DNA of 46,500 nt from Euryarchaeota archaeon SM23-78. GTDB taxonomy: Archaea; Nanobdellota; Nanobdellia; Woesearchaeales; SM23-78. This document shows positions 5,001 to 31,463 of this stretch, piece by piece. Location: the NCBI GenBank assembly GCA_001595785.1, contig LSSJ01000041.1, positions 1-46,500 on the forward strand. Direction: 5' to 3'. Every line of letters begins with the position of its first letter. The stretch's first letter is position 1. Position numbers and translations under genes: made by a program. The notes below the pieces were generated by a model that did no database searches, had not been told where the DNA came from, and saw only the letters and a program-made list of their open reading frames with translations.

Positions 5001-5065
5001 AACCAGGTAATATAGTCGGTTATAATGATAATATGTGTTAGAAATAAGTCTCAAACTCAAATTAG

Positions 5066-5230
5066 GCTGCGTTGAAAATCTCACGTTCGTTCGGGTTAGC
5101 ATCGGCTCGGGCTCTATGTCTTCTTCTGAGGGCTCCGTTCCCCCGGATGGGGCATCCCCCGACTCTGCTTTGACTGTTAAGTTTATTTATGCCCTCGCGA
5201 ATTGATGCTAACCTACATTTTCAACACAGC
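5066..5230 (-). repeat. Structured repeat element, copy 1 (122-nt core 5093-5214; candidate ncRNA or MITE)
   Basis: The core 5093-5214 aligns without a gap to the reverse complement of 31182-31303 at 91 of 122 positions. It begins GGGTTAGCATC and ends GATGCTAACCT, an 11-bp terminal stem. The T-A pair at core positions 10/113 is C-G in the other copy, a compensatory change. Conserved blocks are CGGCTCGGGCTCTAT, CCGGATGGGGC plus TCCCCC, and TATGCCCTCGC. In copy 1 alone a second, outer inverted repeat flanks the core: GCTGCGTTGAAAAT (5066-5079) against ATTTTCAACACAGC (5217-5230). The orientation given follows copy 2, which has a TATA box just upstream; it is tentative. It has no open reading frame of note. 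Confidence 0.7.
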
Positions 5231-5248
5231 GACTCAAATTTAAGAATA

Positions 5249-31130: not shown

Positions 31131-31181
31131 GATAAATTTATGAACAGAAAATGGATTTATATAGTTTGTTATAATTAAGAT

Positions 31182-31303
31182 GGGTTAGCACCAATTTGCG
31201 AGGGCATACATCAGCACCATAATCAGAGCGGAACAGGGGGACGCCCCATCCGGGGAGGTGGAGCTTTAGGGAAAGGTAATAGAGCCCGAGCCGGTGCTAA
31301 CCC
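31182..31303 (+). repeat. Structured repeat element, copy 2 (122 nt; candidate ncRNA or MITE)
   Basis: The element begins GGGTTAGCACC and ends GGTGCTAACCC, a perfect 11-bp terminal inverted repeat. Its reverse complement aligns gaplessly with 5093-5214. A TTTATATA at 31156-31163 lies about 23 bp upstream of its left end, so a transcript beginning at or just inside the element is plausible on the + strand. GGGGGACGCCCC and CCCCATCCGGGG are overlapping, mutually exclusive hairpins inside it, and both are conserved in copy 1. There are no flanking direct repeats that I can identify as a target-site duplication. Confidence 0.7.
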
Positions 31304-31313
31304 AACATAAAAA

Positions 31314-31321
31314 TTTATAAG
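31314..31321 (+). promoter_or_regulatory. TATA box for the mini-gene at 31344
   Basis: TTTATAAG centred near 31317.5, 26 bp before ATG 31344, so the short membrane-peptide mRNA is predicted to be leaderless. Confidence 0.5.
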
Positions 31322-31343
31322 TAATAGAATTAAGAATTAAACC

Positions 31344-31463
31344 ATGGACCCAAAAAAAGTCTCATTAAAAGCTCTCATCTACATCCTCTTAGCACTTGCA
31401 ATCCTCTTAATAGCTTATGGTATTATCAGAAACCTAGCTGGTCTGACTGGTTCTTTTAGTTAG
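31344..31463 (+). CDS. 39-residue single-pass membrane peptide
   Basis: A complete short gene from ATG 31344 to TAG 31461-31463. The product begins MDPKKVSLKALIYILLALA and has one membrane helix (about 9-28) and a short polar end NLAGLTGSFS. A well-placed TATA box supports expression. Length, one helix and basic N-terminus resemble small accessory subunits such as archaeal Sec61-beta, but I see no conserved motif to support that. The stop is three bases before the end of the convergent gene. Confidence 0.5.
   Translation: MDPKKVSLKALIYILLALAILLIAYGIIRNLAGLTGSFS

Follow-up and report, generated by a model that had tools for sequence, protein, structure and literature searches.

Two copies of a short element lie in the window, i.e. 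the whole stretch of 46,500 nt of contig LSSJ01000041.1 that was analysed here, and both are intergenic, with a cold-shock gene and a pfkB gene as neighbours. A preliminary description of this DNA had paired their cores (5093-5214, and the reverse complement of 31182-31303) as a structured element, and much of it holds: both cores are 122 nt long and align without gaps with 91/122 identities, core positions 10/113 form a T-A pair in copy 1 and a C-G pair in copy 2, and the cores reach 54% and 58% G+C compared with 36% for the window. The 11-bp terminal stem reported for both copies is complete in copy 2, while copy 1 has 10 bp and a G/T mismatch at the outermost position. What has to be given up is the two-copy element of 122 nt, as the unit is larger and occurs at least 22 times in the genome.

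Full-length copy 1 measures 168 bp (5064-5231, minus strand in the orientation of the covariance model R2) and is matched by two models, R2 (G000:C41:5064-5232, 131 bits, E 2.8e-28, copy 1 belonging to the R2 training set) and R1 (5090-5223); the span 5066-5230 given previously covers nearly the entire element, whose precise limits, set by the flanking direct repeats, are 5064-5231. It is flanked by a perfect 9-bp repeat, ACTCAAATT, at 5055-5063 and 5232-5240, corresponding to a target-site duplication. The 14-bp terminal arms (P1), supported by sequence, covariation and folds, are inverted repeats located at 5066-5079 (GCTGCGTTGAAAAT) and 5217-5230 (ATTTTCAACACAGC), followed inwards by a small side hairpin at 5080-5093 that reads C-GA-AC-GAAC-GT-GA-G on the minus strand (alignment A4; helix 6). 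The next stem, P2, joins 5094-5103 (GGTTAGCATC) to 5204-5213 (GATGCTAACC), is supported by sequence and covariation, and corresponds to the terminal stem of the preliminary description. P3 joins 5105-5112 (GCTCGGGC) to 5191-5198 (GCCCTCGC) around a central TC/TC internal loop (GA/GA on the other strand), and the apical G/C-rich block (5140-5160) can form two alternative hairpins that have their middle strand in common. The core of copy 2 (31182-31303, plus strand in the orientation of the models) is matched by R1 at 31173-31306 (128 bits, copy 2 being in the R1 training set) and by R2 at 31166-31344 (74 bits); P1 is not recognisable in this copy, and no convincing target-site duplication was found in its flanks.

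Copies are numerous both in this genome (1.48 Mb, 47 contigs) and in its order. Copy 2 used as a blastn query matches 19 places in the window genome, with a best non-self E-value of 3e-32, and R1, built from 14 copies, matches 22 places at E<1e-3, so that the likeness of the copies is far beyond chance; R1 also has matches in 16 of 59 relatives. The full-length model R2 (training set n=16) detects the element in 106 of the 288 order genomes; of 68 positives among 371 genomes sampled across the phylum, 67 fall within the order and the remaining one in another part of its class. The search of the genome and its relatives by covariance model, suggested in the preliminary description, has thus revealed many further copies, the copy numbers from these broad searches being lower bounds, as scoring covered only part of the candidates in each genome. 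Database loci of Candidatus Woesearchaeota CG1_02_57_44 and of the unclassified archaeon DeMMO3_27 also contain an exact stretch of the element, and none was detected in viral contigs searched for exact element patterns. Woesearchaeota, to which named relatives assign the window genome, are abundant archaea, and largely uncultured. In the literature searched (ISfinder and subscription journals being outside its scope), no description of this element family and no paper naming both DPANN and MITEs (miniature inverted-repeat transposable elements) was found. Across loci, the elements lie in every orientation to neighbouring genes, and a cis-regulatory element tied to a constant neighbour was rejected, since neighbours are not common across loci and orientations are mixed. 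Some copies are broken by other short palindromic repeats (L015, G000:C42; L017, G000:C5; L110, G000:C26; L093, G004:C21), such as GAGCGAACGAAGTGAGCG and TGCTCAAAAACAAAGTTTTTGAGCA, often within loops, and these interrupting repeats recur in the genome as simple palindromes.

The copies from other families revealed that the core is enclosed by longer arms. The full unit is about 165 bp long and closed by an outer stem P1 of 14 bp (GGCTCTGTCCTAAAT type; 11-18 bp across full copies), absent in clear form from short derivatives such as copy 2. Within P1 lies a small side hairpin of the pattern C-GA-NN-loop-NN-GA-G, then P2 (GGTTAGCATC type), an AATTT bulge, P3 split by a tandem GA loop, and an inner stem, up to an apical G/C/G block with its two alternative hairpins. 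In 16 full copies, 89.9% of the cells are paired and compensatory changes occur in 35 of the 44 base pairs, across families, in line with the structured element with compensatory pairing first proposed from a single pair. Compensatory cells amount to 148 compared with 41.7 +/- 5.7 in shuffles, and to 30 at most when partners are slid by 1-3 columns. Among 22 further copies outside the model, compensatory changes are present in 37 of the 44 pairs, in an alignment fitted to the model, and the single strand of the element folds better than 200 out of 200 shuffles. Three copies in G158 carry identical extra stem-loops in P2, and this modified form has therefore spread. The conserved multi-stem architecture is a new aspect of the family.

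Definition of the P1 ends brought out direct repeats to the left and right of the elements. In 24 of the 38 full copies, the ends are immediately adjoined by an exact repeat of 6 bp or more (6-10 bp, mostly 9), while re-pairing flanks between elements gave a mean of 0.35 copies and a maximum of 2; an exact duplication was not found in the other 14. Of 75 flanks examined (70 nt; 38 full copies, loci L051-L143), 37 contain TATA-like motifs, compared with 17 in shuffles, which suggests insertion near promoters.

Which transposases could have moved such elements? Inspection of DDE_Tnp_1 loci in copy-rich genomes revealed several insertion sequences of about 900-1100 bp with ends of the element type, starting with GG(C) (GGCTCTGT... 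and GGCCGCGATG...) and with duplications of 8 or 9 bp. Their terminal repeats are near-identical to those of the elements in G118 (ends GGCTCTGTCCTGAATCTC, repeat GGTTTTATG, transposase broken by a stop), in G246 (ends GGCTCTGTCCTAAGTCTC, terminal repeats as in the elements) and in G197 (ends GGCCGCGATGAAAATCTC, repeat ATCACCGGC), and related in G167 (ends GGCTCTGTAGAAAAC, repeat ACCATTTC) and G051, the 8-9 bp duplications being those of G118, G197 and G167. Directly beside the G197 insertion sequence lies an element end whose terminal repeat is the same, and the 3' ends of the elements consist of the terminal repeat followed by CTC, as in the partner insertion-sequence ends. An intact transposase relative of 292 aa, with ends GGAACCGTCCAGAATCT, is present in a genome of the window's genus (G002). 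The partner transposases score above the cut-off of PF01609, and their best NCBIfam match is NF033579 (IS5), at 139.1 and 124.7 bits for a cut-off of 140. The IS903 and ISH1 groups of the IS5 family have ends starting with GGC and duplications of 8-9 bp. Other candidate partners were rejected: IS6-type transposases (PF13610) occur in 50/288 genomes, but the ends that could be found (GGCAAAGTCAAC) are unlike those of the elements, IS1595 (PF12762) is present in 6/288 genomes, and ISL3 (PF01610) in 1/28 copy-rich genomes. Neither the window genome nor G158, which has several fresh-looking copies, yielded genes for PF01609 (DDE_Tnp_1), PF13610, PF12762 or PF01610; as no DDE_Tnp_1 transposase was seen in the window genome, its copies may no longer move.

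A derivative with cargo has also been observed: at G053:C91:1847-3578 (L189), element ends enclose a nucleotidyltransferase gene and a HEPN gene, of the toxin-antitoxin type, with a 9-bp flanking repeat, TAAAACAAC, read from the sequence. The window genome also contains a 244-bp unit (L194, G000:C2, 2213-2456) whose ends read AGTTGCGTTCAAAAT/GGCTGCGTTCAAAAT and whose flanking repeat is imperfect; it is unmatched by the models and lies about 290 bp from another nucleotidyltransferase/HEPN pair. At another locus (L022, G000:C38, 1501-2883), two small membrane-protein-like genes lie between two elements that point the same way, and distant relatives of both genes adjoin an element in G047 (L053).

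The target-site duplications, the IS5-like insertion sequences with the same termini and the cargo copy indicate that the element is a transposon and, more precisely, belongs to a MITE family, probably of IS5 type. Both copies in the window very probably represent an order-wide family of non-autonomous DNA transposons of about 165 bp, presumably moved in trans by IS5-type transposases, whose interior palindrome is kept at the DNA level; it is probably this known kind of insertion sequence that mobilises them. The elements are short, non-coding, multicopy and dispersed over many contigs and contexts, have terminal inverted repeats and target-site duplications, and share their ends with insertion sequences in relatives. 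In every respect testable here, this is therefore a MITE family, with an unusual and deeply conserved fold.

The preliminary description had hesitated between a structured RNA family and a MITE: the MITE half stands on the 9-bp duplications, the terminal inverted repeats and the IS5-type insertion sequences with the same ends, and its idea of a conserved structure also holds, compensatory changes being abundant, but the DNA-like pairing and the outcome of the Rfam search speak against RNA. Wobble pairs gave no strand choice for the element, and this led to asking whether its pairing is of DNA or RNA type. Among the standard pairs of the elements, G·T accounts for 3.4%, with a G·T:A·C ratio of 1.24 (21 vs 17), compared with 21.6% and 15.5 in SRP RNA drawn from the same genome set, taken as control as tRNA gave too few genes. 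In the independent set of further copies, G·T is at 3.1% but outnumbers A·C by 28 to 8 (3.5), the underlying alignment having been fitted to an RNA model with a bias towards G·T. Since G·T is rare and hardly above A·C, unlike in SRP RNA, pairing appears to be kept at the DNA level: the fold looks maintained by Watson-Crick pairs, and a preference for one strand is weak or absent, as DNA would show.

Could the elements nevertheless be a structured non-coding RNA family, with transcribed copies, the folded RNA as product and dispersal secondary? The deep covariation, the conserved non-canonical GA modules, the single strand that outfolds all 200 shuffles and the TATA-like motifs flanking many copies speak in its favour, although these motifs are not confined to one side and could just be a sign of intergenic promoters. 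The small share of G·T pairs, barely above A·C and unlike that in SRP RNA, speaks against it, as do the 9-bp duplications and the insertion sequences with the same ends, and the Rfam comparison with the window gave nothing above gathering score and, relaxed to E 10, chance-level matches only, so that no known RNA family was matched. The preliminary description itself had held that a transposase gene with matching terminal repeats would contradict RNA, and by that reasoning the insertion sequences found in relatives argue against a pure RNA origin, which is thus very unlikely.

Adoption by the host is less improbable, if still unlikely: MITE copies would act between genes as hairpins of DNA or RNA, with roles as terminators, insulators or processing sites, and host selection would keep the fold. 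A few copies occupy the same site in different species of the genus, with flanking proteins 50-78% identical, and those in both species still fold although their arms differ; they may be old insertions or may have been kept for the host. Similarly, two families have a copy in the same divergent intergenic region beside a pelota/eRF1-like gene (L063, G045:C41; L072, G047:C9). However, copies stand in every orientation to genes and, given tens of copies in each genome, the few sites in common could reflect old insertions or coincidence. The hairpin architecture and the tetranucleotide GTAG, which several copies have at the P2 foot, also recall hairpin repeats moved by a Y1 tyrosine transposase (of the REP/REPIN or IS200/IS605 type), yet GTAG is present in part of the copies and not conserved, and, among the transposase families searched, it is DDE-type insertion sequences that have the elements' ends. 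The Y1 pathway is not known to make regular 9-bp target-site duplications, and their presence excludes it for full copies, leaving this origin extremely improbable overall. The GTTAG/CTAAC arms also suggested an integron attC-like site, a reading that was rejected since their sequence is freely variable and their orientation is wrong.

If the elements are MITEs of IS5 type, the transposase would recognise P1 (GGCTCTGTCCTAAAT-like) as its terminal inverted repeat, and the 9-bp duplication would arise when an element inserts between genes. The matching of ends by the transposase can explain P1, but not P2, P3 or the inner stem, whose covariation is unexplained by transposition alone because a transposase needs terminal repeats only. 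Together, the side hairpin, P2, P3 with its tandem GA mismatches, the inner stem and the apical G/C block make the interior a long imperfect palindrome, whose two sides co-vary almost only by Watson-Crick pairs. What makes it persist we can only infer: the hairpin form would be maintained in DNA through selection on a hairpin or cruciform, template-switch correction between arms, or both. Both processes fit the pairing data. It can be argued that template-switch correction would be insufficient alone, because the GA mismatches are conserved, although these are replaced by normal pairs in some copies. A bolder idea, which we regard as possible but rather doubtful, is that the interior functions as a structure of DNA: a hairpin or cruciform of several stems, with tandem GA modules, that has evolved under selection on DNA rather than RNA and is needed for transposition, cargo carriage or host tolerance, in which whole stem sequences are exchangeable as long as the fold is kept. 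If true, it would be the DNA counterpart of a structured RNA family.

The family is widespread in the order and could easily be taken for a structured RNA when screening by covariance, and counts of G·T versus A·C, with an RNA control from the same genomes, offer a simple way to discriminate DNA palindromes from RNA. With its compensatory DNA palindromes, it is also a natural resource for studying how palindromes persist, and at least one derivative bears a nucleotidyltransferase/HEPN pair of the toxin-antitoxin type.

How do these elements compare with known systems? The partner insertion sequences resemble the IS5 family (IS903/ISH1-like) in their GGCTCTGTCCTRAATCTC-type terminal repeats and 8-9 bp duplications, whereas the elements have no transposase and share with them the terminal 15-18 bp only. 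The bacterial ERIC, RUP and Correia elements are imperfect palindromes of 100-170 bp, intergenic and termed MITEs (PMC10969869; PMC2759123, PMC3049150). They belong to different hosts and are likened to the present elements by architecture alone, and covariation over many families of one order is unusual by comparison. REPINs associate with REP-associated tyrosine transposases, in contrast to the elements described here, which have 9-bp duplications and DDE-type partners. The likeness to REPINs is that these are also miniature mobile DNA with a palindromic structure (PMC3116915). MITEs are known in archaea, including Sulfolobus and haloarchaea, and prokaryotic MITEs are, like the present elements, short, non-coding, multicopy and intergenic, with terminal inverted repeats, target direct repeats, insertion-sequence ends and stem-loops (PMC10969869). 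Unlike prokaryotic MITEs generally, this family has a G+C content above that of its host, a cargo-bearing derivative, and many covarying interior stems with tandem GA modules that are conserved throughout an entire order.
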